Shown here: piece by piece, positions 27,316 to 43,299 of the stretch
How positions within the stretch are numbered: the stretch's first letter is position 1
Layout: each line of letters opens with the position of its first letter
NCBI GenBank assembly: GCA_919903025.1
Contig: CAKKSE010000087.1
Span: 4,318-47,724, forward strand
Length of the DNA: 43,407 nucleotides
Reading direction: 5' to 3'
Source: Nitrospiria bacterium
GTDB taxonomy: Bacteria; Nitrospirota; RBG-16-64-22
Notes under the pieces: model-generated
The model's database searches: none
What the model saw: the letters and a program-made list of their open reading frames with translations, nothing else
What the model was told of the DNA's origin: nothing
Translations under genes and position numbers: made by a program

Positions 27316-27450
27316 GAGCCGATGCGTCATATGCCCCAGGTGTGCGCGATTCGACGTTGCGGGCGTACGTGCCAATCAGGAATAGGGCCGGCCTCTCTCC
27401 GAATGGCCATGGAACAGGGGGAGTCCAGCAAGAAAACACTTTGGCGGAAA

Positions 27451-27466
27451 GGGCACCGAGATTGCA
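27451..27466 (+). promoter_or_regulatory. Sigma-54 promoter upstream of the cytochrome locus
   Basis: GGGCACC-GAGA-TTGCA matches the sigma-54 consensus TGGCACG-N4-TTGCW: the -24 GG and -12 GC are in exact register, and only two bases of the 15-base core differ. Transcription would begin near 27477, giving a leader of about 40 bases to the TTG start at 27518. An NtrC-type activator is encoded in the same locus at 32208-33578. Confidence 0.7.
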
Positions 27467-27517
27467 AATAGCACTTTTCTAACGTCGATACCCCAAGGGA
27501 ATTGGGAGGAGGGAGTA

Positions 27518-28891
27518 TTGGTTCGGTTGGATGAGGCGCAAGGGTGGAAAAAGAGGCGGCCGCCGATTGTCGCGTGGATCGTCGGGGCCGCGTGGCTGAT
27601 GATGTCGATTGGAATGGCCGCGGCGGCCGAAGGGGCGGAGGCGGCCCCCGCGTCGTGCGTGACGGCGAAGTGCCATGAGAAGATGGGGAAGGCGTCCTTC
27701 GTCCACGTTCCGGTGGCGGCAGGGATGTGCACGTTCTGCCACAACCAGCCGAACCCCGCGAAGCACGCGTTCAAGGACGCCCAGAAGGGGGCCGATCTTT
27801 GCTACATGTGTCATCCTCGCAAGGACACGAAAGCGGTCGTTCATGCGCCGGTCAAAGCGGGCCAGTGCTCCTTTTGCCACGACCCCCACCAGTCTCAGAC
27901 GAGCAAGTTCAGGCTCAAGATCGTGCCGCCGGAGAAACTCTGCTTCACCTGCCACCAGGACAACATGACGAGCCAGAAGTTCGTTCACGGCCCCGTCGCC
28001 GCCGGTGCCTGCACGGTCTGCCACAATCCCCACGAATCGCCGTACCCCTACCGGGTGGAGAAGAAGGGAAACGATCTTTGCCTAATGTGCCACACGGACA
28101 AGGCCGAGGCCCTCCTGGCGAAGAAGTACACGCACCCCCCGGTCAAGGAGAAGTGCACGAACTGTCACTCGCCGCACGCGACCCCGCATCCGTTTCAGCT
28201 CAAAGCGGCGGTCCCGGCGCTCTGCTTCGGGTGCCACAAGGACAAGGAGCAGTACGTGGCGGCCGCCCGCACGAAGCACGAAGCCCTCTCGCTCGGGAAA
28301 TCGTGCGTCAACTGCCACGACCCGCACGTGGCGGACCTTCCCAAACAGCTCGCCGCGGCTCCCATGGACCTCTGCTTCAAGTGCCACGACAAGGAGCTGG
28401 ACACGCCCACGGGCAAGATCATCAACATGAAGAAGTGGATCGAGGAGAACCCGATCTGGCACGGCCCGATCAAGCAGAAGGACTGCGCGGCCTGTCACAA
28501 CCCTCATGGGTCCGACAACTTCCGGATCCTCAAGAAGTTCTTTCCCCGGGAGTTCTACACCTCTTTCGAGGTGGAGAAGTACGCGCTCTGCTTCAATTGC
28601 CACGAGCAAACGCTCGTCCTGGACTCTCAGACCACGACGCTGACGGATTTCCGGAACGGCGACGCGAACCTGCACTTCAAGCACGTGAACAAGATAGAGA
28701 AAGGGCGGACGTGCAGGGCCTGTCACGAGCTGCACGCGTCGAAGCGTCCAAAGCGGATGCGCGAAGCCGTCCCCTTCGGGGCCTGGGAGATCCCGATCAA
28801 TTACGAGAAGACAAAGACGGGCGGCCGGTGCGCGCCGGGATGCCACGTTCCCCGGGCCTACGACCGCGACAAAGCGGTTGTGAACCGGTGA
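27518..28891 (+). CDS. Multiheme c-type cytochrome (13 CXXCH plus CX4CH and CX3CH)
   Basis: A 457-residue exported cytochrome of the doubled-CXXCH type. A basic N-terminus and hydrophobic segment (IVAWIVGAAWLMMSIGMAAAA) act as a signal sequence. Thirteen CXXCH motifs follow, many as CxxCHxPH in alternating pairs spaced about 25-45 residues. Before them is CVTAKCH (CX4CH) and after them CAPGCH (CX3CH), possible noncanonical heme sites, so 13-15 hemes. The start is TTG 27518, placed after GGAGGAGGGAG. It is the first gene after the sigma-54 promoter; its stop overlaps the TPR gene (GTGA). A role as periplasmic electron carrier is inferred. Confidence 0.92.
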   Translation: MVRLDEAQGWKKRRPPIVAWIVGAAWLMMSIGMAAAAEGAEAAPASCVTAKCHEKMGKASFVHVPVAAGMCTFCHNQPNPAKHAFKDAQKGADLCYMCHPRKDTKAVVHAPVKAGQCSFCHDPHQSQTSKFRLKIVPPEKLCFTCHQDNMTSQKFVHGPVAAGACTVCHNPHESPYPYRVEKKGNDLCLMCHTDKAEALLAKKYTHPPVKEKCTNCHSPHATPHPFQLKAAVPALCFGCHKDKEQYVAAARTKHEALSLGKSCVNCHDPHVADLPKQLAAAPMDLCFKCHDKELDTPTGKIINMKKWIEENPIWHGPIKQKDCAACHNPHGSDNFRILKKFFPREFYTSFEVEKYALCFNCHEQTLVLDSQTTTLTDFRNGDANLHFKHVNKIEKGRTCRACHELHASKRPKRMREAVPFGAWEIPINYEKTKTGGRCAPGCHVPRAYDRDKAVVNR

Positions 28892-29430
28892 GGTGGACGG
28901 TTTTCGCCCTGGGGGTCTTGATCGCGTTGTTCCTGGCCGCCCCGCCGAGGGCGGACGGAGAGCCGCCGATCCTCCGCCCGGGAGTCAAGGTCGACGTCCC
29001 CCCCGAGGACGCCGCGATGACGCGCTTGAAGGAAGCCGATCGACTCGAGGATGAGGGGAAGACGGTCGAGGCCCTCCGCGAGGCGGAGGAGGCCGCCCGA
29101 CTCCGGCCCCAGTGGGCCGTGGCCCACGTTCGTCGAGGCCAGCTTCTTCTGGCCGCGGGACGGCCGAACGAGGCCCGCCGGGCGTTCGAGGAGGCGCTCA
29201 AGATCGCGCCGATGCTGCCCGAAGCCAAGACGGGTCTCGGCATGACGTTTTCGAGAGAGAAGAATTGGCCGGAGGCGGAGAAGCGGCTCCGCGACGCGCT
29301 GACGCTCAACCCCGATCCCGTCCGGGCGCTCTACGAGATGGGCCGCGTCCTGGAAGCCCAGGGACGGTTCAAGGAGGCCGCCGAAACATACAAGACGGCC
29401 CTTCGAAAGCTTCGTGAAGGACGTCGATGA
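28888..29430 (+). CDS. Exported TPR-repeat protein
   Basis: A 180-residue protein from GTG 28888. It has a signal peptide or membrane anchor (TVFALGVLIALFLAAPPRADG), then about three tetratricopeptide repeats from residue 50 on (ADRLEDEGKTVEALREAEEA, RRGQLLLAAGRPNEARRAFE, GRVLEAQGRFKEAAETYKTA). TPRs bind partner proteins. Coupled between a multiheme cytochrome and a thioredoxin-fold/TPR protein, it may assist cytochrome assembly or hold the complex together; this is inference. GTGA and ATGA overlaps join it to its neighbours. Confidence 0.85.
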   Translation: MRWTVFALGVLIALFLAAPPRADGEPPILRPGVKVDVPPEDAAMTRLKEADRLEDEGKTVEALREAEEAARLRPQWAVAHVRRGQLLLAAGRPNEARRAFEEALKIAPMLPEAKTGLGMTFSREKNWPEAEKRLRDALTLNPDPVRALYEMGRVLEAQGRFKEAAETYKTALRKLREGRR

Positions 29431-30524
29431 AGACAGTGCCCGCCGCCGCCGCGTTGTTTTGTCTCGCCTGTGCGTCACTCCTGCTCGCGCCCCGGGCCGG
29501 GGGGGCCTTGACGAAGGTCCAGGCCGGGATGAAGGCCCCGGGGTTCGTTCTCAAGACCCTCGAAGGAAAGCCGCTCGCTCTTGAAAAGAACCTCGGGCGA
29601 AAGGGAACGGTCGTCGCGTTCTGGGCGACCTGGAGCCCCGGCTCTTCGAGGCTCCTCGCGCGCCTTCGGTCGTTCCACGCCGAGCATGGCGGGGAGGGAC
29701 TCGCCGTCATCGGCGTCAACGTCGAGAACCAGACGATTGGACTCGAGGACCGCGAAAAAATCCGCAAGTTCGCCGCCGATCTCAAGGTCGGCTTTCCCAT
29801 TCTCCTGGACGATCGCCTTTCCATATTTCACCGCTACGGCGTCGTGGCCGTCCCTTCGACCGTCGTTCTCGACGACAAGGGAATCGTCGTGTTCGAGCTC
29901 TCGGGTCTTTCCCTGATCGGGGGGGAGGAGCTCTTCGACCGAATCTCGTCGATCGTCGGCGCGGGGCGGCCAGCCGCCCCGCCGGCCCTCGCCTACCATC
30001 CCGACGAACGAGCGGTTCGGGAGTACAATCTGGGACGGCAGATGATCGAGAAGGGAATGACGGAGGCAGGCCGGGCGATCCTTCTCAAGGCGGCTGACCG
30101 AGACCCCAACTTCGTTCCGCCCGTCCTGCTGGTCGCGCGGCTCCTCCGGGAAGCGGGCCGGCTGGAGGAGGCGGAAGCGCTCACGGCCAGGTCCCTGGAG
30201 CGGATGCCGAAGAACGCCCAACTCGAAAGCGATCTGGCCCTAATCCGTCTCGCCCAGGGACGGACGGAGGAGGCGGCGAGGATCCTGTCCGAGGTCATCC
30301 GGCGCGACCCGGAGTACGCGCCGGCCCACTGCTACCTTGGACGCGCGCTCAAGCAGATCGGGGACCGGGAAGGCGCCATCAGGGAGTGCCGTCTCTCCCA
30401 GTCGCTGAATCCTCACAACGCGGAGTCGTTCGAGCTCTCCGCGGAGACGATCGAGGCGATGGGAGACCTAAAGCAGGCCGCGGCCGATTACCGGAAGGCC
30501 GTCGAACTGATTGCCGGATTCTAA
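29427..30524 (+). CDS. Exported thioredoxin-fold (TlpA/AhpC-like) protein with C-terminal TPRs, lacking active-site cysteines
   Basis: A 365-residue protein with a signal peptide (about 1-27). Residues about 33-175 form a TlpA/peroxiredoxin-like thioredoxin fold (APGFVLKTLEGKPLALEKNL, VVAFWATWSPGSS, VVAVPSTVVLDDKG). The active site reads W69-S70-P71-G72-S73 where relatives have WCxxC, so both catalytic cysteines are replaced by serine while the cis-proline VPST is kept. About four TPR repeats occupy 195-360. It cannot act as a dithiol oxidoreductase; a chaperone or apocytochrome-binding role is more likely. It is preceded by the TPR gene with ATGA overlap. Confidence 0.87.
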   Translation: MKTVPAAAALFCLACASLLLAPRAGGALTKVQAGMKAPGFVLKTLEGKPLALEKNLGRKGTVVAFWATWSPGSSRLLARLRSFHAEHGGEGLAVIGVNVENQTIGLEDREKIRKFAADLKVGFPILLDDRLSIFHRYGVVAVPSTVVLDDKGIVVFELSGLSLIGGEELFDRISSIVGAGRPAAPPALAYHPDERAVREYNLGRQMIEKGMTEAGRAILLKAADRDPNFVPPVLLVARLLREAGRLEEAEALTARSLERMPKNAQLESDLALIRLAQGRTEEAARILSEVIRRDPEYAPAHCYLGRALKQIGDREGAIRECRLSQSLNPHNAESFELSAETIEAMGDLKQAAADYRKAVELIAGF

Positions 30525-30655
30525 TTTTTGGGATATCTTCATCCATGCAGGGCGTCCGGAACCTTTCATTTCGTTCCCCCCGGACCGCCGCCGAACCCCG
30601 TTTCGGAAGGACTCCCGATCGGTGCGCCTTTCTTCGCGTGGATTCAAGCGATCAC

Positions 30656-32221
30656 ATGGTTCGTGAGCGCGGTGTCGACATGGATGCGGGCGTGTCGCGT
30701 CTGAAGGTCAAGTTCCTCGTTTCGTTCCTCTCGCTGTTGATCCTGTTTTCGGGGGTCTTCCTCTGGCTCAACCTCCGCACGCACTCGGCCCTGATGTTCG
30801 AGACCGGCCGGGACCGGGCCGAGCTCCTCGTCGAGACGGCCAAGAAGGGGATCATCGCGATCATGCTGGAGGGGAAGGGAAGGGAGGTCCAGAACCTGAT
30901 CGAGACGTTTGCGGCCCACGGGGAGGTCGCGTCGATCCGGATACTGGGAGTCGACGGCCGGATCCTTCACTCCGCCCGGCGGGAGGAGATCGGGGGGGTC
31001 GATCGCCCCGCTCTGGCGCGCCATCGGTCCGAGGATCCGTCCCGCGTATTCACGGACGTCCGGGACGGCCGGACGATCTTCCACATCCTCACGCCCATCT
31101 ACAACCAGCCGAAGTGTCATGCCTGTCACGGCTCGAGCCACGAGATCCGGGGGATCCTGAGCGTCGAGGCCTCGATGGAGAAGTGGGACGCCGAGATCGC
31201 GCAGATGGAAAAGACGCTTCTCCTGTCTTCGGTCGTTCTGATCGTCCTGGTCCTCGCGGCGGGCGCGGGTCTTCACACGCGGATCGTCGACCGGCCGATG
31301 GGCCGGCTCATGGAGACGATCCGCAAGGTGCGCGACGGAGATCTGTCCGCCCGCGTCCCGATCCGGACGAAGGATGAATTCGGGATCGTGGGGAGCGCGT
31401 TCAATTCCATGGTCGGCGAGGTCGAGCGGACGCGGCGCGATCTGGAGGAATACCACTACAAGCAGATGGAACGGGCGGACCGGCTGGCTTCGATCGGCGA
31501 GCTGGCTTCGAGCGTCGCGCATGAGATCAAGAACCCCCTCGCCGGGATCAGCGGGGCCATCCAGATCTTGTCGCGGCGGGAAGGGAACCCGCCTCCCGAG
31601 ATCCTCCAGGAGATCCAAGAGCAAGTGGTTCGAGTCGATCGCACGGTCAAGAACCTCCTGTCGTACGGCCGGCCGGCCTCGCCCCGGCTCGTTTGGACGA
31701 ACGCGAGGGACGTTCTCGAACGGTCCCTTTTCCTCGTCCGCCATATGGCCGAGCGGAACCGGGTGCACGTGGAGACCCGGTACGACGATCTCGACGTGCC
31801 GATCTTCGTGGACCCGGAGCAGATGCACCAGGTATTTCTCAACATCTCGCTGAATGCCATCCAGGCCATGCCGCACGGGGGAATCCTGGAGGTATCGGCC
31901 GCCGTCAAGCTCTACGACGAACGGAACCTGGTCGAGCGGGCCGTCACGGACCTCGACGCGGAGCGTCCCGAGTGGTTGGAGATCCGGTTCCAGGACAACG
32001 GCGTGGGAATCCCTCCCGAGAGTCTGGGGCAGATCTTCGAGCCGTTCTTCACGACGAAGGCGCACGGAACGGGTCTGGGCCTGTCGATCTGCCGCCAGAT
32101 CCTGCGCCTGCATCAGGGGATGATCGCCGTTTCCAGCGAGCCGGGGCGCGGGAGCTGTTTCACGGTGTTCCTGCCCGTCGCGGACAGGCCGTCGGAGGGA
32201 TCGCAGAATGCCCACGCCTAG
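30656..32221 (+). CDS. Sensor histidine kinase with a c-type heme motif in its periplasmic domain
   Basis: A 521-residue membrane kinase from ATG 30656; ATG 30680 is an alternative and neither has a strong ribosome-binding site. TM1 is near 18-38 ([20 protein letters not shown]). The periplasmic domain (about 39-185) carries C154HAC157H158 in [13 protein letters not shown], a heme-attachment motif. TM2 is near 188-210, then a HAMP domain. HisKA has the phosphoacceptor His289 in [13 protein letters not shown]. HATPase_c has [37 protein letters not shown]. It overlaps the response regulator by 14 bases. It likely senses redox state or a heme ligand and controls the sigma-54 promoters of the locus (inference). 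Confidence 0.9.
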
Positions 32222-33578
32222 GGTCCTGGTCGTCGACGACGAGCACTTGATCCGCTGGTCGCTGGAACAGCATCTCGAGAAGAACGGGTACGAGGTCATC
32301 ACGACCGGCAATGGAAGGGAGGCCGTTCAGATCGTCCAGGACGTTCTCCCCGAGGCCGTTCTCCTGGATATTCAGATGCCGGGGATGGACGGGATCGAAG
32401 TCCTCCGGGCGATCCGCGAGATCGACCCGGACGTCCCGGTCGTGATGATCACGGCCCATGGGGGCGTCGGGTCGGCCGTGGCCGCGATGAAGCTCGGCGC
32501 CTATGACTACGTCGAGAAGCCGTTCGATATCGAGCGAATCACCGTCCTTCTGGCCAACGCGCTCGAGCGCAGGACGCTCAAGGGGGAAGTGACCCGGTTT
32601 CGGTCGGAGCAGGGCCGGCGTTACGGCCTCGAACGAATGGTCGGCGAGAGCCCGGCGATCCGGCAGGTGAAGGAGACGATCGAGAAGATCGCCCGGAGCG
32701 ACGCGGCGACGGTCCTCCTCCAGGGGGAAAGCGGAACGGGGAAAGACCTGGCGGCGAAGATCGTCCATTACCAGAGCGCCCGGGGGGACTTCCCGTTCGT
32801 CGAGATCAACTGTTCGGCCCTGCCCGAGACCCTGGTCGAGAGCGAGCTGTTCGGCCACGAGCGCGGAGCCTACACCGACGCGAAGACAATGCGGCGGGGG
32901 TTGTTCGAGCTGGCTGACGGCGGGACCGTCTTCCTGGACGAGATCGGCGACATGCCGCTCGGTCTCCAGCCCAAGCTCCTGAAGGTCATCGAGGAAAAGA
33001 CGTTCCGGCGGATCGGGAGCGCGCGTGACATCCGGGTGGACGTCCGCGTCATCGCCGCGACGAACAAAAATCTGGCTGAGTTGGCGCGCGCGCGGGCGTT
33101 CCGCGAGGACCTCTTCTACCGTCTCAACGTCATCCCCCTGCGTCTTCCGCCACTCCGCGAGCGAAGGGAGGACGTCCCGTCGCTCGTCCGCCACTTCGTC
33201 GAAGCGTTCAGCCGGGAGTGCCGGAAACCGATCCGGGGGGTCGACCCGTCGGCGGAGCGCCTTCTCGCGGCGTACGACTGGCCGGGAAACGTCCGGGAGC
33301 TCCGGAACGTCATCGAGAGAGCGATCATTCTGGAGAACGCCCCGTCCATCCTGCCGACGCACCTTCCCCCCGAGATCGTATCTCCCGTTCCTCCGGCGCC
33401 GGAGGAACGGGGGGGGATCGTCGTCACCGAAAAGGGCGTGTCGCTCGAGGAGGTGGAGAAGGAGCTCATCGGTCAGGCGCTCAATCTGGCCGCAGGGAAC
33501 CAGGTCAAGGCGGCGCGGCTTCTCCACCTCACGCGGGACGTTCTCCGGTACCGGATGAAGAAGTATGGTTTCCTGTAA
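32208..33578 (+). CDS. NtrC-family sigma-54-dependent response regulator
   Basis: A 456-residue activator. The receiver domain (1-120) has the acidic pocket D10-D11 and phosphoacceptor D54 (AVLLDIQMPGMDG). The AAA+ domain (about 145-375) has Walker A GESGTGK at 173-179, FLDEIGDM as Walker B, and RLPPLRERREDVP. The sigma-54 contact loop reads GAYTDA at 220-225, where GAFTGA is usual. The C-terminal Fis-type helix-turn-helix spans about 415-456 (QVKAARLLHLTRDVLRYRMK). It is coupled to the kinase upstream and to a cytochrome gene downstream (TAATG). Two sigma-54-like promoters in the locus are its likely targets. Confidence 0.95.
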   Translation: MPTPRVLVVDDEHLIRWSLEQHLEKNGYEVITTGNGREAVQIVQDVLPEAVLLDIQMPGMDGIEVLRAIREIDPDVPVVMITAHGGVGSAVAAMKLGAYDYVEKPFDIERITVLLANALERRTLKGEVTRFRSEQGRRYGLERMVGESPAIRQVKETIEKIARSDAATVLLQGESGTGKDLAAKIVHYQSARGDFPFVEINCSALPETLVESELFGHERGAYTDAKTMRRGLFELADGGTVFLDEIGDMPLGLQPKLLKVIEEKTFRRIGSARDIRVDVRVIAATNKNLAELARARAFREDLFYRLNVIPLRLPPLRERREDVPSLVRHFVEAFSRECRKPIRGVDPSAERLLAAYDWPGNVRELRNVIERAIILENAPSILPTHLPPEIVSPVPPAPEERGGIVVTEKGVSLEEVEKELIGQALNLAAGNQVKAARLLHLTRDVLRYRMKKYGFL

Positions 33579-34579
33579 TGAGGCCCGGCGCGGCGCTGAT
33601 CGCTTGGGCGGCGATCCTTCTTTTCCCTGCGGCGGCGGAGTCGTGGGAGATCGTTTTCCCGTCCGAGGGGACGCTGTTCGATGACGTTCCATTTCTGAAC
33701 CTTGTCGCGGAACGGCCGCCCCGCGCAAGCGGGGTCGAACGAATCGACGTGCGGGTGAACGGGCGGCTCGTGGAGACGATCGATCTCACGGAGAGAGGCC
33801 ACGCCGGAAGCTTTCTGTGCCGCGGCCTTCGCGTGGAACCCGGCCCGGTGACCCTCCGGGTGGAAGCGTCGGGCCCGGACGGGGACCGGCGGACCGAGGT
33901 CCGCGAAGTCAGGGTGTTCGTCCGCTCCCTGCTCAACCCGGGGTCTCGGAACGCGCCGCCGGGTTTCGCGGGCAAGCCGTTCCACACGCCGGAAAAAGAG
34001 CGGCGTTGTTCGGGGTGCCACCGGATGGACCCGTCGCCGGGCGATCGGAAACCGTCCGAGCCGAAGATGTCCTCTTGCTTCGCTTGTCACCGGAGGATCG
34101 TCGCCTTCCGCGAGGCGCACGGGCCGGCGGCGGTGTGGGACTGCCTTTCGTGCCACGATCCGGAGAGCCGGCCGGCCAGGTACGCCACTGCCCAGCCCAA
34201 CAGCGCGGTCTGCTACGAGTGCCACCGGCGGCAGGCGGAGGAGAGGAACAAGCTCCCTTACATCCACGGTCCGACGTCGACGGGCAAGTGCACGATCTGT
34301 CACAGTCCGCACGGAACGGACAACCCTTTCTGGCTCAAGAAGCCCGTCTGGGACCTTTGCACGGCCTGTCACGCCGAAAAGGCGGATGGGCGCCACGTCG
34401 TGGCGGGGTTCGTCTTCGGCGAGACGCACCCCACGCGGGGCCGGCCAGACCCGACCCGTCCGGGAAAGGACCTCTCTTGCGCCTCGTGCCACAACCCGCA
34501 CTCGGCGCCATCGAAGTTTCTTTGGAACTTCGGTGTCACGCGGCGGCTGGACCTTTGCCGCGTCTGCCACAAGAAATAA
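33578..34579 (+). CDS. Octaheme c-type cytochrome with N-terminal beta domain
   Basis: A 333-residue exported protein. Signal peptide about 1-20 (ALIAWAAILLFPAAAES). Residues about 22-120 look like an Ig-like beta domain (ERIDVRVNGRLVETIDL, VTLRVEASGPDG). From about 145 there are eight CXXCH motifs: CSGCH, CFACH, CLSCH, CYECH, CTICH, CTACH, CASCH, CRVCH, several followed by xPH as in doubled-CXXCH proteins. The ATG overlaps the regulator stop by one base, so the sensor system and this cytochrome share a transcript. The beta domain may bind a partner or substrate surface. Confidence 0.92.
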   Translation: MRPGAALIAWAAILLFPAAAESWEIVFPSEGTLFDDVPFLNLVAERPPRASGVERIDVRVNGRLVETIDLTERGHAGSFLCRGLRVEPGPVTLRVEASGPDGDRRTEVREVRVFVRSLLNPGSRNAPPGFAGKPFHTPEKERRCSGCHRMDPSPGDRKPSEPKMSSCFACHRRIVAFREAHGPAAVWDCLSCHDPESRPARYATAQPNSAVCYECHRRQAEERNKLPYIHGPTSTGKCTICHSPHGTDNPFWLKKPVWDLCTACHAEKADGRHVVAGFVFGETHPTRGRPDPTRPGKDLSCASCHNPHSAPSKFLWNFGVTRRLDLCRVCHKK

Positions 34580-34610
34580 CCCCCCGCAAGGGACGCGTCC
34601 TGGGGTATTT
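34578..34610 (+). terminator. Hairpin after the octaheme cytochrome gene, possible weak terminator
   Basis: CCCC...GGGG arms (about 34581-34584 and 34602-34605) enclose the near-perfect palindrome GGGACGCGTCC, followed by TATTT. It sits directly after the stop codon and upstream of a new sigma-54-like promoter, which suits a transcript end. The T-run is poor. Confidence 0.4.
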
Positions 34611-34729
34611 CCCTCATTCCTGCGCAAAATTCCCCAGCAGGGATTTGGAACATCCGGCGCGGCACAGGGAGAAATCTCCAAACACTCTGGAAGCGGCCGC
34701 CTTACAAGCCGCCGAAGAGTAAGGTTCGA

Positions 34730-34745
34730 TGGCCCGCTTTTTGCG
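34730..34745 (+). promoter_or_regulatory. Second sigma-54 promoter in the cytochrome locus
   Basis: TGGCCCG-CTTT-TTGC differs from the core TGGCACG-N4-TTGC at one base, with GG and GC in exact register. Transcription would start near 34756, about 25 bases before the ATG at 34781. The 200-base gap upstream leaves room for activator sites; the imperfect palindrome AAATTCCCCAGCAGGGATTT near 34627-34646 is one candidate. Confidence 0.68.
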
Positions 34746-34780
34746 TTTGCCAACTGGCATACGACGCGAGGGGAGACGGT

Positions 34781-35758
34781 ATGAAGGGGATCGTGCTTAC
34801 CGTCGCGATCGCGGCCACTGCTTCCGCGGGGGTGGCGGGGATGCCGTCCGTCATTCCGCCCGAAGGCGACCTGATCCGCCGGACGCACGAGATTCCGGAA
34901 CTCCTGTCCACGGGGAGGCTGACGCGCGGCCAGATTCCAAACCCGCACTGGCGGGGTGACGGCTGTCCGGCCTGCCACGCCGGAGATCCCGACTCCGGTG
35001 CCCCCCGGCTTTCCAACCAGGATATCAACCGCCTCTGCAACACCTGTCATGAGTCGCTCTCGGCCCAGATGTACATTCACGCCGTCGGAATGGTCCCCTC
35101 CAAGGAGAAGCAGGACAGGATGCCCGGCCCGTTCCGCGAGGCCGTGAAGCGGGGCGGGGGCGCGGTGACCTGCATCGCCTGCCACGACCTGCCGATGCAG
35201 TGCAGGAAGGAGCGCTGGTCCGAGCGGCGCGAGAACCCCCTTTTCTTCCGGGAAGGGCCGTACGCGCGCCGGACGGAGCTGTGCATCCGGTGCCACGATC
35301 CCCGGCACTACGCACGGCTCAACGCCCACGACCAAGTCACGAACGACGGGGCGCTCCGGACCGACGTTTGCCTGCTCTGCCACAGCGTGACGCCGAAACG
35401 CGATGAAGTCCGGAGCATCGACGACGTTACGTTCAAGGTGACGGACGATCTCACAGCCCTCTGCACGGGATGCCATCCGTGGCGGCCCCATCCGGGAGGA
35501 GAGTTCGCTGCATACGACAAGAAGAGCCTCAACCACCTCGTAATTCCCTCGGCCGGGATTCGAAAGCAGATCGGTTTGACCGAGAAAGAAAATGACGTCA
35601 TCCTTCCGCTCGAGCCGGGGTCGGGCCGCATTTTCTGCGCGACTTGCCATAACCCCCATGAGCGGGGCGTACAGAGAATGAGCCGTGCCGACAGGGGCGC
35701 TGACAGCCCTCAGCGGCTTCGCCTGTCGAACATTTGCTCGGGTTGCCATGTCAAGTAA
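34781..35758 (+). CDS. Octaheme c-type cytochrome
   Basis: A 325-residue exported cytochrome. ATG 34781 follows GAGGGGAGA. Signal peptide about 1-20 (IVLTVAIAATASAGVAGM). Eight CXXCH motifs: CPACH, CNTCH, CIACH, CIRCH, CLLCH, CTGCH, CATCH, CSGCH. Spacing is irregular, with long heme-free stretches in the middle and between hemes 6 and 7, unlike the compact doubled-CXXCH proteins nearby. It is the first gene behind the second sigma-54 promoter. Its end is overlapped by an in-frame upstream ATG of the next gene, and the two are close enough to be co-translated. Confidence 0.92.
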   Translation: MKGIVLTVAIAATASAGVAGMPSVIPPEGDLIRRTHEIPELLSTGRLTRGQIPNPHWRGDGCPACHAGDPDSGAPRLSNQDINRLCNTCHESLSAQMYIHAVGMVPSKEKQDRMPGPFREAVKRGGGAVTCIACHDLPMQCRKERWSERRENPLFFREGPYARRTELCIRCHDPRHYARLNAHDQVTNDGALRTDVCLLCHSVTPKRDEVRSIDDVTFKVTDDLTALCTGCHPWRPHPGGEFAAYDKKSLNHLVIPSAGIRKQIGLTEKENDVILPLEPGSGRIFCATCHNPHERGVQRMSRADRGADSPQRLRLSNICSGCHVK

Positions 35759-35777
35759 CAGGGACCGGGGATTCGGG

Positions 35778-36911
35778 ATGAACCGCACGATGGGACGAAG
35801 GTTTCTCGCGGCCGTCTGTCTCGTCTTTCTCGCTACAGCGGGAGGCGGAGGCGCCCGTGCGGCGGAGCCCTTCGACGACGAAGAGAACTGCCTCATGTGC
35901 CACAAGTATCCGAAGATGGGGCGGGTCACGGAGGACGGCGTGCTGAGATCGTACACCATCGTCCCGGAGATCTTTTCCCGGACCGTCCACCGGAACGTGC
36001 CGTGCCGGGACTGCCATACGGAAATCAAGGAGCTCCCGCACAAGCCCGTCACGAAAGGCGTGTCGTGCGACACCGAGTGTCACTCGATTAATAATCCGGC
36101 GACGGGCCGGCCTTTCAGCCACAAGATCATCGTGGAGGTCTACCGGAAGAGCAACCACGGTCGTGAAAAGAACGAGGAGGGGCCGGACAGGGACAAGCCG
36201 TACTGCATCACGTGCCATACGAACCCGCTCTACAACCCGGTGGAAGAACAGCCGCCGGGCCGGATCGTTGACCGTTGCGTCGTCTGCCACGAGAAGCGGA
36301 AGTTCGTGAACGCCTGGTACAACCACACGAGCCGTCGAATCCGCGAGGTCCGGCGGTCATCCGAGGAGATCGTGGTTCTGTGCTCCTCCTGCCACGGAGA
36401 CAAGAAGCTCGTGGACCGCCGTATCGAGACGGCGGCGAAAGAAGGCCGGTCCATGGGTCGGAAGTTCCCGTTGGCCGTGGAGTCTTACGACGCGAGCTTC
36501 CATGGGAAGATGATACGTTACGGGTTCGCGAAGGCCGCGAACTGCCTGGATTGCCACGCTGACGCGGGGAACTACTACCTGAGCGTTCACGAGATGAGAC
36601 CGTCCCGGGACGAGCGGTCTTCAGTCGGCCGGGAGAACCGGGTGAAGACCTGTCAGCGGTGCCACCCGTACGCCGGAGCGAGCTTCGGCGCGATCGATCC
36701 TCATCCGACGGCCGACCGGACGGACAACCCTTTCCGCCACTACATCGAGAAGGGTTACGGCCTGGCCGGATATCTCGTTCCAACCGGGATGCTGGCGCTG
36801 GCGATGTTCGAGACGATCGGCCGGAGGAGGGACGGGGTCTCCTGGATGCTCCGCCACGGGACCTCCTGGCGTCGCCGCAGCCGGCGCGGAAGGGACCGGC
36901 ATGGAGCTTGA
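35778..36911 (+). CDS. Membrane-attached multiheme cytochrome c (7 CXXCH plus one CX3CH)
   Basis: A 377-residue exported cytochrome. ATG 35778 is preceded by GGGG at seven bases and gives a clean signal peptide (RRFLAAVCLVFLATAGGG); ATG 35748, inside the previous gene, would lengthen it. Motifs: CLMCH, CRDCH, CDTECH (CX3CH), CITCH, CVVCH, CSSCH, CLDCH, CQRCH. A C-terminal hydrophobic segment (GLAGYLVPTGMLALAMFETI, about 325-345) is followed by a very basic tail, so the protein is probably anchored to the inner membrane with hemes outside. With the cytochrome b downstream it could form a quinol-oxidising complex. Confidence 0.9.
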   Translation: MNRTMGRRFLAAVCLVFLATAGGGGARAAEPFDDEENCLMCHKYPKMGRVTEDGVLRSYTIVPEIFSRTVHRNVPCRDCHTEIKELPHKPVTKGVSCDTECHSINNPATGRPFSHKIIVEVYRKSNHGREKNEEGPDRDKPYCITCHTNPLYNPVEEQPPGRIVDRCVVCHEKRKFVNAWYNHTSRRIREVRRSSEEIVVLCSSCHGDKKLVDRRIETAAKEGRSMGRKFPLAVESYDASFHGKMIRYGFAKAANCLDCHADAGNYYLSVHEMRPSRDERSSVGRENRVKTCQRCHPYAGASFGAIDPHPTADRTDNPFRHYIEKGYGLAGYLVPTGMLALAMFETIGRRRDGVSWMLRHGTSWRRRSRRGRDRHGA

Positions 36912-36967
36912 TTTCGCGGTCCGGAATGTTCGCGAGAGTTGGGGCTCGCTCCGTTGGCGGGTTGAAG

Positions 36968-37065
36968 AACCCCGCCTTGAAAGGCGGGGATTCTCCGACC
37001 TCTAAGGTGTTTTTCGATGTTTGCATTCGTGCGCCTTGACCCCGCCTCTAGGGGCGGGGATTGCG
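36968..37065. repeat. Pair of related GC-rich hairpins (ACCCCGCC...GGCGGGGATT)
   Basis: Two direct copies of a hairpin sequence, at about 36969-36992 and 37039-37062, each with arms CCCCGCC and GGCGGGG and the same ATT tail. They are about 70 bases apart in the 241-base gap before the cytochrome b gene. They resemble REP-type or IS200/IS605-end hairpins; no transposase is present. They could also attenuate or process the transcript. Confidence 0.55.
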
Positions 37066-37152
37066 GCGCACTTTGCGGTTCACGTGGACGCCAATGGCGG
37101 CGCCAGCGGCGTGGTGAGCAATCGTGGTTAGAGATGGGAGGTCCGAGGACAG

Positions 37153-38100
37153 ATGATCCTTTCGGGAGAGGCGAGACGGGTCCTTGATCTGTCGATTCGG
37201 CAGAACGGCCTGTCGGAGAGCGGGAAACGGGATGTGGAGGACTTGCTGGCCATGATGCCGGCGGACCGCGTCCTTCTGTACAAGAACGTGGATTCGAACC
37301 CCGTCGGGGACCTCCCCCGCTACTCCATCCACATCCGGATCCAGCACCTCCTGATCTTCACGACGTTCCTGCTCCTGGCTTTCACGGGAATGCCCATCCA
37401 TTACTTCGACACCTTCTGGGCGGGGCCGCTGAACGCCATCTTTGGCGGCGTCGGGGTGACCCGCGTCGTCCATCGGACGCTGGCCGTGGTCATGATCGCC
37501 GCCATGGTCTACCATTTCGCCGCGATTCTCCTGGGGACCCTGTTGCGGATTCGGGGAAAGCGGTTCGACGTGCGCCGGACCATCGTGCCGGCCATGAAGG
37601 ATCTGCGTGATTTCAAGGAGGACATGTCGTATGTCGCCGGACGGCGCGACCAGCGGCCGGAAATGGACAAGTTCATGTACAAGCAGAAGATGCACTACTT
37701 TGCGGCGGGAGGCGGGAATCTTATTCTCGTGCTGTCCGGGTCCTCGTTCCTCTTTCCGGAGATGTGGGCGAGTGTACTTCCGAAGGCCGCGGCAGCCTAT
37801 TTTCAGGAAATCATGCGGATGTCCCACCCGCACGAGGCGCTCCTGGCCCTGCTGGTCATCGCCTTCTGGCACTGGTACAACGTCCACCTGGCGCCTGGAC
37901 GGTTTCCGATGCAGTGGAGCTATCTCACGGGCAAGATCACGCGCGAACACCAGATCGAGGAGCACTTCCTGGAATACGTCCGGTGTCTGGTCGAGGTTCC
38001 GGAGGAGCGCCGCACCTTGCGGGCGATGCTGGAGGCGAGAGGGTTGGCGGATCACGGGGAGAGTCCGAGGGGGTTCATCGCGGAAGAAGCGGGGCGATGA
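37153..38100 (+). CDS. Integral membrane di-heme-type cytochrome b
   Basis: A 315-residue protein with four predicted transmembrane helices at about 65-85, 105-130, 182-202 and 226-246, the layout of b561/formate-dehydrogenase-gamma-like cytochromes. Histidines suited to axial heme b ligation lie in or near the helices: His65, His107, His121, His181, His227 and His240. The N-terminal 55 and C-terminal 65 residues are polar and probably cytoplasmic. ATG 37153 follows GGGAGG. Between a membrane multiheme cytochrome and a triheme membrane cytochrome, it most likely passes electrons from the quinone pool to periplasmic hemes. The stop overlaps the next small gene (ATGA). Confidence 0.88.
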   Translation: MILSGEARRVLDLSIRQNGLSESGKRDVEDLLAMMPADRVLLYKNVDSNPVGDLPRYSIHIRIQHLLIFTTFLLLAFTGMPIHYFDTFWAGPLNAIFGGVGVTRVVHRTLAVVMIAAMVYHFAAILLGTLLRIRGKRFDVRRTIVPAMKDLRDFKEDMSYVAGRRDQRPEMDKFMYKQKMHYFAAGGGNLILVLSGSSFLFPEMWASVLPKAAAAYFQEIMRMSHPHEALLALLVIAFWHWYNVHLAPGRFPMQWSYLTGKITREHQIEEHFLEYVRCLVEVPEERRTLRAMLEARGLADHGESPRGFIAEEAGR

Positions 38101-38210
38101 AGCCCCTCACGCGGCGGCAACGGACGATTGCGTACGGGTCGCTCGGTTTCGTGATCGGCTGGGCGTTGGTGGGCCTTTTCTTTATCGGAGTCATCGTTCT
38201 CGGTCCCTGA
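38097..38210 (+). CDS. 37-residue single-pass membrane protein of the cytochrome b operon
   Basis: The ATG overlaps the cytochrome b stop (ATGA). The product has a basic N-terminus (KPLTRRQRTIAYG), then one hydrophobic helix (LGFVIGWALVGLFFIGVIVLG), consistent with N-in topology. It ends ten bases before the triheme cytochrome gene. Small single-helix subunits are common in membrane-bound oxidoreductases, so it is probably a structural subunit of the b/c complex. No named family is recognised. Confidence 0.68.
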   Translation: MKPLTRRQRTIAYGSLGFVIGWALVGLFFIGVIVLGP

Positions 38211-38219
38211 GGTGCAGAG

Positions 38220-39293
38220 ATGAGCGAGGACACCGCGCTCGGGACGTTTTTCATTATCAGCACGGTCCTGTTGTTCGTCCTCCTGAGCGTTGCCGGCCTG
38301 TTGATCGTGGACCACCGGACACGGATTCCAGGCGGTCCGAAGGAGGGCTGGTTCGGCCTTTCGGGGCCGAAACGGAATCATCCGTTAGCGGCTCTGATTG
38401 TCGCGGGCGCGCTCCTCTTCGTCATCGGGAGCCTTCTGGTTCTCATCACGGCGGCTCATCTGCGGGAAGCGGGCTTCTTCAGGGATTCGGACCCGCCGGA
38501 GATCCTGGCGAAGGTGCGGGCGGAAAGAATCCTCGAGCGTCTTCGCCGTTTTCACAACCTTCCGGTGAGCGACCCGCTGACGAAAGGACGAAAGACGGCT
38601 TGTTTCCACTGCCACGGGGACTTCCCGCACTCGAAAGAGCCGATGATGCGGAGCCTGCTCAATATGCACACTCAATTCGTCGGATGCATGACGTGCCACG
38701 CCGACGACCGGAAAGTGCCGGAGAAATCGCTCCGCCTGCGGTGGGTCAACGCTTCGGATATCAAGGTCTTGGGACAGCCGTTCGGCCTCGACAACGATCC
38801 CGTGACCGGAGGCCTGAAACCCACGGACGACTATTACTCTCAGATCGTCGCCTACGCGGAGGTCGGCGGAAAAGAGGGACTGCTGGAGATCCTCGACGAA
38901 GCCCCCGAGACGCAGGATTTCCTTCGGACCCGGGATCGGATGTCGGATCAGGACCGGGAGGCAGTGAAGAAGACTTTTCACCGGCTGGTCAGTCCGAAGG
39001 GGCGGCTCTGCACGCGATGCCACGCCGATCCCAAAGACAGCTATCTTCCTTATCGGGCGCTCGGCTTCTCGGAATCGCGGATCAAGGACCTGACGCATAT
39101 GAACATCATCGGCCTGGTGGAGAAGTACCGGGAGTTCTACATACCTACGCTGCTCAAGTCAGAGAAATCCCTGCCTTCCACGGAGATCCTGGCCGGGCCG
39201 GGTCGGCCCCGGTCCGCGCCTTCGCCCGACCTGAAGAGGGATCCGCGTTCCTGGTGGCGGCAGACCTATGACCCGCCCGGCGGAGAGAGATGA
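38220..39293 (+). CDS. Triheme membrane cytochrome c
   Basis: A 357-residue protein with two N-terminal transmembrane helices (FFIISTVLLFVLLSVAGLLIV at about 10-30 and ALIVAGALLFVIGSLLVLIT at about 57-76) and a periplasmic domain with three heme motifs, CFHCH, CMTCH and CTRCH. The third is over 100 residues after the second. ATG 38220 follows GGTGCAGAG. It is likely the c-type subunit docked on the cytochrome b (37153-38100). A proline-rich C-terminal tail ends the protein. The stop overlaps the NHL gene (ATGA). Confidence 0.88.
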   Translation: MSEDTALGTFFIISTVLLFVLLSVAGLLIVDHRTRIPGGPKEGWFGLSGPKRNHPLAALIVAGALLFVIGSLLVLITAAHLREAGFFRDSDPPEILAKVRAERILERLRRFHNLPVSDPLTKGRKTACFHCHGDFPHSKEPMMRSLLNMHTQFVGCMTCHADDRKVPEKSLRLRWVNASDIKVLGQPFGLDNDPVTGGLKPTDDYYSQIVAYAEVGGKEGLLEILDEAPETQDFLRTRDRMSDQDREAVKKTFHRLVSPKGRLCTRCHADPKDSYLPYRALGFSESRIKDLTHMNIIGLVEKYREFYIPTLLKSEKSLPSTEILAGPGRPRSAPSPDLKRDPRSWWRQTYDPPGGER

Positions 39294-40234
39294 CTCGTCG
39301 CGGGTTGGAGAGGGGCCGTGTTTTCCTCGGGGTCGTTGTCCTTGTCGGAGGGTGTGCTTGGCCGGCAGACGCCTCTCCGCTGAAGATCCGAGACATCCGG
39401 CCCCTCTTCCAAATCACGGAGACTCCGGCCGGACCGCTCGCGCTGCCGACGGACGTTGCGGTTGGGCCCCAGGGGAGGATCTACGTCGTCGACGGGGGGA
39501 ACCACCGGGTTCTGGCCTTCGACAGGGCGGGGCGATACTTGTTTTCCATCGGGCGAGAAGGATCGGCGGCGGGGGAGTTCAGGGGCCCGGTCGGGATCGG
39601 CGTCGATGGCGCGGGCCGCGTCTACGTGGCGGATTCAGGGAACCATCGGATCCAGGTGTTCGACGCGAGCGGCCGTATTCTTCACGGGTTCCGCGTCACG
39701 AGCGGGGGCGCCGCGGTTCGACCCGTGGATGTGGCCGTGGATGGCCGCGGCGGCCGGCTCTACGTGTCGGGCAGCAACAACCACAAGGTGATGGTTTTCA
39801 CGCCCGACGGGAAGCCCGTTCGCGAATGGGGGGGCGAAGGAGCGGGCCGGGGCGAGTTCCGGTACCCCGCGACGGTGGCCATCTCCGGGGAGGGCCGGGT
39901 CCACGTTGTCGACGTCCTGAACACGAGGGTGCAGGTTTTCGACGGGAGGGGGCGGTTTCTGGCGGACGTGGGCGAGTGGGGCGTTCTCCCCGGCCAGTTC
40001 TTCCGGCCGAAGGGGGTGGCCCTCGACCGGCGGGGCCGCGTTTACGTGACCGACAGCTACATGGACCTGATCGAGGTTTTCGACGAGTCGGGCCGGTTCC
40101 TTCACGTCCTGAGCGGCGAGGGCCGAATCAAGAAGTTCACGTCTCCCGCCGGCATCGCAATCGACACGGACGACCGGTTGATCGTGGCCGAGGTGCTGGC
40201 GAACCGGGTTTCCGTCTTCTCCCTGGGGCGGTGA
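39290..40234 (+). CDS. Exported NHL-repeat beta-propeller protein
   Basis: A 314-residue protein with a signal peptide ending in a lipobox-like VGGC near residue 21, so it may be a lipoprotein. Six NHL repeats follow, each with a pattern such as GRIYVVDGGNHRVLAFDRAG, GRVYVADSGNHRIQVFDASG or GRVYVTDSYMDLIEVFDESG, enough for a complete six-bladed propeller. Such propellers bind proteins or ligands. Placed directly before the 24-heme cytochrome (GTGA overlap), it may be its scaffold or surface anchor; this is inferred from position. Confidence 0.9.
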   Translation: MTRRGLERGRVFLGVVVLVGGCAWPADASPLKIRDIRPLFQITETPAGPLALPTDVAVGPQGRIYVVDGGNHRVLAFDRAGRYLFSIGREGSAAGEFRGPVGIGVDGAGRVYVADSGNHRIQVFDASGRILHGFRVTSGGAAVRPVDVAVDGRGGRLYVSGSNNHKVMVFTPDGKPVREWGGEGAGRGEFRYPATVAISGEGRVHVVDVLNTRVQVFDGRGRFLADVGEWGVLPGQFFRPKGVALDRRGRVYVTDSYMDLIEVFDESGRFLHVLSGEGRIKKFTSPAGIAIDTDDRLIVAEVLANRVSVFSLGR

Positions 40235-43200
40235 GTCCGATGTTTATCGCGATTCCGGCGTGGTCCCGGCGTCTCATGGTCTGGCTCGCGGTGGCCGCCG
40301 CGGCCGCCGCGGCCGTCTCGCGGGAAGCGGGGGGGGCGCGGGAGGTCGCCGCCAAGCGCGAATGCGCCACGTGCCACATCGCGTGGATCACGGACTTCAA
40401 ACGCGCGGAGGTGACCCCCCTCGTTCCCTATGAGCCGATGCCGGTGGTGGAGTCCGGCCGACAGGACGCGGCGAGCACCGAACGCATGTGCTTCTCCTGC
40501 CATGACGGGTTCGTCCGGGATTCACGCTCTCTTTGGAAGAACAGGGGTCATTCGCACCCGGTCGGCGTCCGGCCCTCGTCCCGGATCAAGTCCCCCGCCA
40601 TCGAGGGAAAACCGGTCTTCCCCCTGAACGAGGACGGAAAGGTCTACTGCGGCACCTGTCACACGGCGCACAGCGTGGCCTGGGGGCCGGGAGAGAAGTC
40701 GGTCTTCCTGCGCGCCCGGAACACCGACTCAAGCCTTTGTGTTGCCTGCCACCTCGATTCGAGCACGGGCGCAAAGGAGGGGAATCATCCCGTTTTCAAG
40801 CCCCCGCGGGAAGTGTCGGCTTCCCTGCGAGAGGCGGGCGGGCGGCTCGGCGAAGGAGGGATCGTCATCTGCGAGTCGTGCCACCGGTCGCACGGCGCGC
40901 CCGAGGCCGGGATGCTGGCCGTCCGCAACGACCGGTCCCAGTTGTGCGGGGCCTGCCACGCCGACCTGGACGCGAAGGACCGGGTTGGAGCGGCCCGATC
41001 GGGAACGCACCCGGTCAACTTCCCGCTGGGCGGAGACGGTCTCGCCGATGACCTGCGCGCGCGGGGAGGCCGCCTGGGGCGGGGCGGCGAGTTGGTTTGT
41101 CAGACGTGTCACAAGGCGCATGGCGGAGAGGCGGGAGCCGGAATCCTCGTGATGAAGAACAACGGTTCCGCCTTGTGCCAGACCTGCCATGGCAAGGAGC
41201 GGAAAGTCGCCGGCGGAAAGCACGACTTGGCCGTGGCGGCGGCGGACCGGAAGAACGTGAGGGGCCAGCCGGCCAGCCGGGCGGGGGTCTGCAGTGCGTG
41301 CCATCTTCCGCACGGCGGGCAAGGTCCCAAGATGTGGGCTCGGGAAGTCGCGCGGGAAGAGGAGCCCATGGCGGCGCTTTGTCTCACCTGCCACGGACAA
41401 GGGGAATCCGGAGGCGCCAAGTCCGTCGGGCCGCACAGCCATCCCGTCGGCAGGAAAATGGAAAAAGGGGGCCCTCCTGCCGGGCTTCCGCTGTTTACGC
41501 GGGAAGGAATCAAGGCGGCGCTTCCGTCTCAGGGCGCCGTCACCTGCGCGACGTGCCACGATCCCCATCAGTGGGACCCCGCGGATGCCGGCCGTGTCGC
41601 GGGCGTGAAGGAGGAAGGGAACGGTCTGAACAGCTTCCTGCGGAAGCCCAACGATCGGGACATGAGTCTTTGCCGGGAATGCCACGAGGAGAAATGGGAC
41701 TACCGGGGAACGAAGCATGACATGGCCGTCGCGGCCCCCGGGGATCGGAACGCGCGGGGTGAGACGGCCACGGAGGCCGGGCCGTGCGGGTCGTGCCACG
41801 AAGTCCACAATGGGAAGGGACCCCGCATGTGGGCCCGGGAGCCGCTTCAAGGCGTGGATCCCGTGTCATCCACGTGTCTGTCGTGCCACAACAGCGAGGG
41901 CGTGGCCAAGAAGAGTCTAATCGGCAAGCATACCCACCCTGTTAATGTCCCGCTCGGACGCGCGGGAACCGGGTCGGCCCGCGAGACGGGAGTCGCTGGG
42001 GCCGGAAAGAAACAGATTTCCGCCCTCCCCTTGCACGACGCCCAGGGCCGGCCTTCGCGGGACGGCGGAAACGTAACGTGCGGAACCTGCCACGATCCCC
42101 ATCGGTGGGCCCCGTCGCCCGGAACGGGCAGCCAGGTCCAAAAGGACCCGCGGGAAGCGAAGGGAGACGGCCGAACCAGCTTCCTGCGAATGAGGGCCGG
42201 CGGAGAGGAAGGTCTTTGCCTCGCCTGCCACGGGGACAAGAGGGCCGTCGCGTCATCACGGCACGACCCGGCCGCGTCCGGTGCCCTGGAGAAGAACGCA
42301 AGGGGACAGACGGCGGCGGAGAGCGGCGTGTGCGGCGCGTGTCACTTCTCGCACAACGGCATGGCCCCGCGAATGTGGGCCCGTGAGCCGGGCCCGGGGC
42401 GCGGACCGCTGGAGGGACTCTGCACGGGGTGCCATCGGACGGGAGGAATGGCCGAGGGGAAGATCGCCGGGACAAAGAGCCATCCCCTGGCGGCCGATTC
42501 TGGGGGACTTGCGGGACGTTCCTCCCTGCCGTTGTATGACGCGGAGGGAAGAAGGAGCCATGATCGCGGACGGATGGAATGCGGAACCTGCCACGATCCC
42601 CACCGATGGGATCCGGCGGGCAAGGGAAACGCCGCGCCGGGAGGAAAAGAAGTCGACGGAGACGCTCGAAACAGCTTCTTGCGTCTGCCGGCGGCGCCCG
42701 TCCCGGTCCTCTGCAACGATTGTCACAAGGAAAAGGGGCTGGTCCAGGGGACGGATCACGATCTCAACGTGACGGGGCCGCGTTCGGTGAACGGACACGG
42801 GAAGACCGTAGAACAGTCAGGGGTCTGCGGCCAGTGTCATGCTCCTCACAACGCTCTGAGTTGGTTGTCCCTATGGGCCCGGATTCCCGGCGAAGGGGCG
42901 GACGGCATGGAGAAGCTTTGCCGGAGCTGCCACGACGCGGGCCAGGCCGCCGGAAACAAAGTCCCGCTTAAGCTTCGGCATCCGGACACGATCAAGGCGC
43001 TCTGGCGCGACGAGCGCGTGTCGCGGGGTGGATTGTTGCCGCTCTTCTCGCGGGACGGGTCTCGGAATCCGGCCGGTCTGATTACATGTCCGACGTGCCA
43101 CGACCCCCACCGCTGGAGTCCATTCATGGAGGGGGGAGGCGCGGGGCGGAACGAAGAAGGAGACGCGCGGACCAGCTTCCTGCGCGGCGTGAGCGATTTC

Positions 43201-43299
43201 TCGATCTGCACCGACTGCCACGGTTTGGAAGGCTTGTTCCGGTACAAGTACTTCCACGGAGAGACGTCACGGAGGAAGCACCCCTTGTATCAGAGGTAA
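40231..43299 (+). CDS. Large 24-heme c-type cytochrome with tandem tetraheme modules
   Basis: A 1022-residue exported cytochrome from GTG 40231 (overlapping the NHL stop); ATG 40240 is an alternative. The signal segment is LMVWLAVAAAAAAAV. It contains 24 CXXCH motifs. Hemes 1-6 are in an N-terminal region with shorter diheme units. From about residue 290 a tetraheme module repeats four times and then half again, at about 149-178 residue spacing. Its landmarks in order are CxTCHDPHxWxP, SFLR, CxxCH with KHD, CGxCHxxHNGxxPRMWARE, CxxCH and (S/T)HPV. This is a modular wire-like architecture, probably for long-range or extracellular electron transfer (inference). No transmembrane segment follows the signal. 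Confidence 0.94.
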   Translation: MSPMFIAIPAWSRRLMVWLAVAAAAAAAVSREAGGAREVAAKRECATCHIAWITDFKRAEVTPLVPYEPMPVVESGRQDAASTERMCFSCHDGFVRDSRSLWKNRGHSHPVGVRPSSRIKSPAIEGKPVFPLNEDGKVYCGTCHTAHSVAWGPGEKSVFLRARNTDSSLCVACHLDSSTGAKEGNHPVFKPPREVSASLREAGGRLGEGGIVICESCHRSHGAPEAGMLAVRNDRSQLCGACHADLDAKDRVGAARSGTHPVNFPLGGDGLADDLRARGGRLGRGGELVCQTCHKAHGGEAGAGILVMKNNGSALCQTCHGKERKVAGGKHDLAVAAADRKNVRGQPASRAGVCSACHLPHGGQGPKMWAREVAREEEPMAALCLTCHGQGESGGAKSVGPHSHPVGRKMEKGGPPAGLPLFTREGIKAALPSQGAVTCATCHDPHQWDPADAGRVAGVKEEGNGLNSFLRKPNDRDMSLCRECHEEKWDYRGTKHDMAVAAPGDRNARGETATEAGPCGSCHEVHNGKGPRMWAREPLQGVDPVSSTCLSCHNSEGVAKKSLIGKHTHPVNVPLGRAGTGSARETGVAGAGKKQISALPLHDAQGRPSRDGGNVTCGTCHDPHRWAPSPGTGSQVQKDPREAKGDGRTSFLRMRAGGEEGLCLACHGDKRAVASSRHDPAASGALEKNARGQTAAESGVCGACHFSHNGMAPRMWAREPGPGRGPLEGLCTGCHRTGGMAEGKIAGTKSHPLAADSGGLAGRSSLPLYDAEGRRSHDRGRMECGTCHDPHRWDPAGKGNAAPGGKEVDGDARNSFLRLPAAPVPVLCNDCHKEKGLVQGTDHDLNVTGPRSVNGHGKTVEQSGVCGQCHAPHNALSWLSLWARIPGEGADGMEKLCRSCHDAGQAAGNKVPLKLRHPDTIKALWRDERVSRGGLLPLFSRDGSRNPAGLITCPTCHDPHRWSPFMEGGGAGRNEEGDARTSFLRGVSDFSICTDCHGLEGLFRYKYFHGETSRRKHPLYQR

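Follow-up and report, generated by a model that had tools for sequence, protein, structure and literature searches.

A multiheme cytochrome locus of a groundwater Nitrospirota genome as the probable inner half of a Uet/Occ-type conduit, with a cytochrome b cassette and a heme-bearing NtrB/NtrC pair

To which electron transfer system do the thirteen genes belong that occupy the end of contig CAKKSE010000087.1 (C87) in the groundwater Nitrospirota genome GCA_919903025.1 (2.86 Mb, 98.7% complete), and is their order that of a described complex? The stretch of DNA analysed, here called the window, has 43,407 nucleotides, and the genes lie between 27.4 and 43.3 kb, all on the plus strand, in the order c13, TPR, TlpA-like/TPR, kinase, NtrC-type regulator, c8a, c8b, c7, cytb, 37aa, c3, NHL and c24 (Table 1). 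An earlier note, made from the window alone, had described them as a complete conduit from quinol to the periplasm or the cell surface, controlled by a heme sensor and sigma-54, in an order matching no named system. The locus is composed of three modules: a native regulator operon (c13 to c8a), a seven-gene cassette (c8b to c24) and a Uet-like outer-membrane conduit. The thirteen genes probably represent the inner half of a Uet/Occ-type trans-envelope conduit, with a cytochrome b quinone module and heme-bearing NtrB/NtrC control. The gene inventory of the note was borne out, the six cytochromes totalling 63 CXXCH and three CX3CH or CX4CH motifs and being accompanied by the cytochrome b, the 37-amino acid (aa) protein, the NHL protein, the heme kinase and the NtrC-type regulator. 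The window contains the inner-membrane and periplasmic half; the locus itself runs past the contig end.

The cassette c8b-c7-cytb-37aa-c3-NHL-c24 is present in dozens of Gamma- and Betaproteobacteria, and its hosts include many lithoautotrophic sulfur and iron oxidizers. Beside the cytochrome b gene, c7 was found in 73 of 73 testable loci, c3 in 72 of 72, the NHL gene in 58 of 66 and c24 in 51 of 57, while a homologue of the 37-aa gene was seen in most proteobacterial copies. All 24 CXXCH motifs of c24 are invariant across 28 aligned 24-heme homologues. Uet-type genes lie at most 10 kb from the cytochrome b gene in 30 of the 35 well-flanked loci. In a genome of the same genus (G006) the native operon joins the Uet-like module directly on one contig with no cassette between them, and because of this empty site the cassette can be considered a discrete unit; G006, which is 92% complete, has no match to the cytochrome b elsewhere in its genome.

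The contig stops 108 bases past c24. Another contig of the host genome (C167), when reversed, opens with sequence matching the stretch that follows c24 in the closest named genome, that of Nitrospirae bacterium RBG_16_64_22, the sister genome of the same genus. On C167 (L126) are found genes for a 5-heme cytochrome, trihemes, an NHL protein, a tetraheme, a peptidyl-prolyl isomerase (PPIase), a 522-aa porin, a HAMP-like membrane protein, a 7-heme cytochrome, a further NHL protein and an 11-heme cytochrome, 91-94% identical to those of RBG_16_64_22. In the latter genome one unbroken contig carries c24, then the Uet-like genes, then ccmC, ccmE and ccmF (recognised from their sequences). The beta-barrel porin, assigned by sequence character and context, is clustered with the PPIase, three trihemes, the tetraheme and NHL genes both on C167 (L126) and at locus L114, outside the window. 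The 11-heme cytochrome (10 CXXCH and one CX3CH), located at 14148-16013 of L114 with a 94% identical copy on G000:C167, is the equivalent of UetJ by heme count and context, not by comparison with authentic UetJ. It speaks against a single conduit that in this genome the Uet genes are carried by another contig, their adjacency being taken over from the sister genome.

On the inner side of the conduit, the cytochrome b matches Pfam PF01292 with 34.7 bits (cut-off 30.1), its sequence profile matches the b556 subunit of formate dehydrogenase N, and its fold retrieves 1kqf_C (FdnI) in Foldseek with E=2.5e-4 and a probability of 1.00. Eight histidines, candidate heme ligands, are invariant in 41 homologues (H60, H65, H107, H121, H181, H225, H240 and H245). 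Because the cytochrome b is FdnI-like and c3 has N-terminal membrane helices, c7, the cytochrome b, the 37-aa protein and c3 likely form a membrane complex exchanging electrons with quinone. The inner-membrane quinone module of b- and c-type cytochromes followed by a long multiheme chain, as the earlier note proposed, is supported.

Gene content, conservation, promoter motifs and the boundaries of the cassette with its empty site are direct observations, and the following mechanism is proposed to account for them. The c7-cytb-37aa-c3 complex, with a di-b-heme membrane subunit of the formate-dehydrogenase-gamma type and multiheme c-type partners, would trade electrons with the quinone pool. The cytochromes c8b and c24 of the cassette and c13 and c8a of the native operon would relay them across the periplasm, on scaffolds provided by the NHL, TPR and TlpA-like proteins, and the downstream Uet-like porin, the tri-, tetra- and pentahemes and the 11-heme cytochrome would make the link to the outside. 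The c-type heme may let the kinase sense a heme ligand or the redox state of the periplasm, and three sigma-54 promoters, at the heads of the regulator operon, cassette and Uet operon, may be driven by the NtrC-type partner of the kinase.

The direction in which such a conduit works is less easy to assign. The outward flow from quinol that had been assumed is one of two directions, and uptake fits the lifestyle of the cassette hosts and of the host class (PMC11033732) at least as well; we slightly favour uptake over export. Export of electrons as in metal-reducing respiration, a plausible reading that we consider somewhat the less probable, is suggested by the likeness of the 7-heme and cytochrome b pair to Geobacter CbcBA, a cytochrome of the inner membrane in use around -0.2 V (PMC12307469), by the activity and expression reported for occ of Ca. 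Dechloromonas occultata during Mn(III) reduction (PMC8258643), and by the formate dehydrogenases and Nuo of the genome, which could serve as electron sources. To be set against these are the many lithoautotrophs among the cassette hosts, the definition of Uet in cathode-oxidizing Tenderiales (PMC10734462, PMC12575090), the host class RBG-16-64-22, likely an autotrophic sulfur oxidizer with reverse Dsr, aclAB (ATP citrate lyase) and NosZ (PMC11033732), and the heme-copper oxidases present in the host genome.

As to the origin of the cassette, acquisition from Pseudomonadota, with insertion at the junction of native operon and Uet cluster, appears most likely, although it is not proven. The cytochrome b of the window is 63-71% identical to proteobacterial copies versus 46-54% to those of other Nitrospirota and of Thermodesulfobacteriota, and in the cytochrome b tree the window and RBG_16_64_22 group with Pseudomonadota, outside the native Nitrospirota clade (support 99/97). 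Two results limit the case for transfer: a tree in which the cytochrome b of the window is constrained to group with the non-proteobacterial copies is 10 log units worse but is not firmly rejected by the approximately unbiased (AU) test, at a borderline p of 0.051, and a c7, cytochrome b and c3 concatenate, in which the outgroup rows were badly behaved, does not reject the same constraint (p=0.35). Only the cytochrome b tree was used for the origin; an earlier AU run (p=6e-5) was left unused, since its constrained group omitted lineages nesting within it. The cassette could instead be ancestral in the genus and have been lost in G006, as a single empty site alone cannot separate gain from loss, the AU test is borderline and native Nitrospirota own a version of the cassette. 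We regard this as unlikely: besides the nearer identity of the genus cytochrome b to the proteobacterial copies, the 24-heme c24, the 7-heme c7 and the 37-aa gene are common to the genus cassette and Pseudomonadota, whereas in the native Nitrospirota copies the heme counts of these cytochromes are for the most part 13-18 and 5-6, and a 37-aa gene was not detected. A purely periplasmic branch, in which the cytochrome b complex and c24 would serve a soluble reductase or oxidase (for nitrite, tetrathionate or thiosulfate) and the Uet-like genes would be functionally separate, has in its favour weak matches to the NrfH, NrfB and octaheme tetrathionate reductase families, a window without a porin and the many sulfur oxidizers among the proteobacterial cassette hosts, and is made quite improbable by the lack of a catalytic subunit in the cassette among the lineages inspected, by the Uet-type genes near most well-flanked cassettes and by the porin and 11-heme cytochrome that directly follow in the sister genome. 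As for the cassette itself, it may be a quinone adapter that moves horizontally and can be fitted to existing Uet-type outer-membrane conduits, and that here came under a pre-existing heme-sensing NtrB/NtrC circuit governing the entire trans-envelope pathway by way of three sigma-54 promoters sharing an activator site; this last proposal is tentative, falling just short of an even balance.

The native operon that precedes the cassette is found more widely. Homologues of c13 at E<=1e-60 occur in 44 of 296 Nitrospirota genomes, and in four of seven genomes inspected outside the genus the c13, TPR, TlpA-like/TPR and c8a genes are adjacent and colinear, three of these four also having a CXXCH kinase next to them; the TPR gene was not detected in the remaining three of the seven. 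The second of the two proteins listed as TPR proteins by the earlier note turned out to be a TlpA/AhpC-TSA-like domain fused to TPRs, while the first stands as described. The closer Nitrospirota homologues of the fusion protein are also without the active-site cysteines, which suggests a structural role.

The sensor domain of the kinase matches PF21563 with 32.4 bits (cut-off 27), and its CXXCH lies inside the match and is kept in 10 of 10 aligned sequences, down to 27% identity. The regulator carries receiver (PF00072), AAA+ sigma-54 (PF00158) and Fis helix-turn-helix (PF02954) domains, and rpoN is present in the host genome. Sigma-54-like sites are not rare in the window by scan alone, two being found versus 2.5 expected at that score, and elsewhere they occur at background level. 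The sites at 27450 and 34729, corresponding to the two promoters of the earlier note, are credible because of their position, their per-region p (0.005-0.01; 0.005-0.03 for all three sites versus shuffles) and their conservation in sister genomes. Promoter 1 is identical in the three genus genomes while its flanks diverge, the -24/-12 core of promoter 2 is kept in both cassette-bearing genus genomes, and a third site, with its core kept in all three genomes, precedes the Uet operon. A 22-base motif is common to the three promoters at -124, -125 and -116 (p=0.0033 versus column shuffles), in a comparison of eight sequences from one genus only. The activator site of an NtrC-type regulator is expected at this distance. 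An insertion in RBG_16_64_22 (L032, 7400-7760), whose inverted ends are TGCTGAAAAAGTCC-like, lies between the motif and the cassette sigma-54 site, so that the motif is found at about -290 instead of about -125.

These data are in line with a heme-motif kinase and a sigma-54 regulator acting in the locus, and we infer that the kinase reads the redox state and that this regulator binds the shared motif, so that expression would be set by heme redox state as first proposed. Three observations tell against such control: the regulator loop is GAYTDA, a variant of the canonical GAFTGA, sigma-54 sites are not enriched upstream of proteobacterial cassettes, and no convincing sigma-54 site was found upstream of c13 in other Nitrospirota.

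Table 1. Genes, candidate regulatory sites and repeat of the locus, in window positions.
Feature	Position	Strand	Basis or remark
Candidate upstream activating sequence of promoter 1, GTCATTTGCCTCAGGGGTGCGC-like	27326-27347	+	22-mer shared by three promoters
Sigma-54-type promoter 1, AGGGCACCGAGATTGCA	27450-27466	+	Candidate; ahead of c13
c13, periplasmic 13-heme cytochrome (+2 CX3/4CH), doubled-CXXCH type	27518-28891	+	Motif count, profile search
Exported TPR protein	28918-29430	+	Profile search
TlpA/AhpC-TSA-like domain + TPR	29427-30524	+	Profile search; active-site cysteines absent (WSPGS)
Sensor histidine kinase, periplasmic Mcp40H-type c-heme domain	30680-32221	+	CHACH at about 31115-31129
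NtrC-type response regulator, sigma-54 activator	32208-33578	+	Domain search
c8a, 8-heme cytochrome, final gene of the native operon	33578-34579	+	Motif count, profile search, neighbourhood comparison
Candidate upstream activating sequence of promoter 2, GGgATTTCCCTCATgCCTGCGC	34604-34625	+	22-mer shared by three promoters
Sigma-54-type promoter 2, ATGGCCCGCTTTTTGCG	34729-34745	+	Candidate; ahead of c8b, head of the cassette
c8b, 8-heme periplasmic cytochrome, opens the cassette	34781-35758	+	Profile and locus comparison
c7, 7-heme cytochrome (+1 CX3CH)	35778-36911	+	Motif count, profile search
Dispersed repeat of about 122 bp, MITE/REP-like, G+C-rich hairpins CCCCGCCTTGAAAGGCGGGG	36961-37083	+	Between c7 and cytochrome b
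Cytochrome b, FdnI-type, presumed quinone-reactive subunit	37153-38100	+	PF01292, fold, conserved histidines
37-aa subunit, single transmembrane helix	38097-38210	+	Open reading frame, transmembrane prediction
c3, 3-heme cytochrome, two N-terminal transmembrane helices	38220-39293	+	Profile search, transmembrane prediction
NHL beta-propeller lipoprotein, lipobox LVGGC	39290-40234	+	Homology, lipobox
c24, 24-heme periplasmic cytochrome, closes the cassette	40240-43299	+	Motif count, alignment

Other features of the locus concern single genes. The open reading frame listed at 39268-43299 is a read-through from upstream, the 24-heme protein beginning near 40240. Homologues of c24 (L032-L111) are mainly 24- or 18-heme forms, which suggests gain or loss of a six-heme block. 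The AlphaFold model of c24 is of modest confidence (predicted local distance difference test 68) and has no significant match in the PDB, where the OmcE nanowire is the top hit (E=1). Many genomes have a second, diverged c7-cytb-c3 set adjoining the first (cytochrome b about 30% identical), in some cases accompanied by a separate NHL gene and a separate c24-like gene (L034, L039, L041, L043, L055, L058, L096, L100, L103, L106 and L109). The repeat of about 122 bp between c7 and the cytochrome b gene, outside the conserved cassette, looks like a miniature inverted-repeat transposable element (MITE) or a repetitive extragenic palindromic (REP) element; at least 12 near-full copies are present in the host genome, and in sister genomes copies occupy other positions within the same locus. 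Upstream (24176-27315) are found a membrane spermidine-synthase-like protein and a FAD oxidoreductase (PigB/HpnE-like), which seem unrelated, the FAD gene preceding c13 in RBG_16_64_22 too. An Rfam search of the window gave no match and no 16S was found in the host genome.

The descriptions of Uet (PMC10734462, PMC12575090) do not say how the conduit is joined to the inner membrane, and the conserved cassette, its empty site and the near-invariant linkage of cytochrome b, c7 and c3 point to a specific inner-membrane partner. The Uet and Occ conduits themselves are already published; the apparent novelties are that the cassette is a discrete unit for which an empty site exists, that it occurs in the Nitrospirota class RBG-16-64-22, from a phylum with few descriptions of such conduits, and that it is placed under heme-sensor/sigma-54 control with three linked promoters, a combination from which a concrete model follows of how extracellular electron transfer may be redox-controlled. 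The view that the gene order is without a match fails for the widespread cassette and for the continuation with Uet content, and stands only for their combination with the regulator.

Among known systems, Geobacter CbcBA resembles the cassette in joining a 7-heme c-type cytochrome (CbcA) to an inner-membrane cytochrome b; CbcA and CbcB were compared by description only. Relative to CbcBA the cassette adds c3, the 37-aa subunit, the NHL protein and the 8- and 24-heme proteins. Nitrospirota also have CbcBA-like pairs (L010-L031), which share no more than about 25% (c7) and 35% (cytochrome b) identity with the cassette and belong to a separate widespread cluster of a 7-heme cytochrome, a cytochrome b and a 6- or 9-heme cytochrome, in many cases next to the gene of a sigma-54 regulator. 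The occ cluster is presumably a large cytochrome cluster with an undecaheme, possibly combining Uet and cassette genes, which is a lead only, and no heme-sensor kinase/NtrC pair is known in it. This cluster, from Ca. Dechloromonas occultata (citing works: PMC8258643, PMC13264449), was likewise compared by description. PCC3 shares with the locus a very large periplasmic multiheme cytochrome (21-27 hemes) and an inner-membrane cytochrome-b-like protein, and differs in porin type and gene order (PMC5566968). Membership in PCC3 was rejected, as its inner-membrane protein has two WX3HX13H motifs and SGXXG (PMC5566968), unlike the cytochrome b described here, whose invariant columns contain HX13H once (H107-H121), without WX3, and no SGXXG.

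The closest likeness in content is the uetABCDEFGHIJ cluster of Tenderiales and Gallionella (PMC10734462, PMC12575090), which matches the genes past the contig end in tetraheme(s), PPIase, beta-barrel porin, three trihemes, NHL proteins and 11-heme cytochrome, a likeness by gene content and not by reference sequences. The ten uet genes as described in these works come without the cassette and without the kinase/NtrC operon found here. The CXXCH-bearing sensor region of the kinase matches the Mcp40H-family sensor domains of Geobacter (PF21563); unlike these, it is fused to HAMP, HisKA and HATPase domains and paired with an NtrC-type regulator, and the pair probably controls the adjoining conduit.

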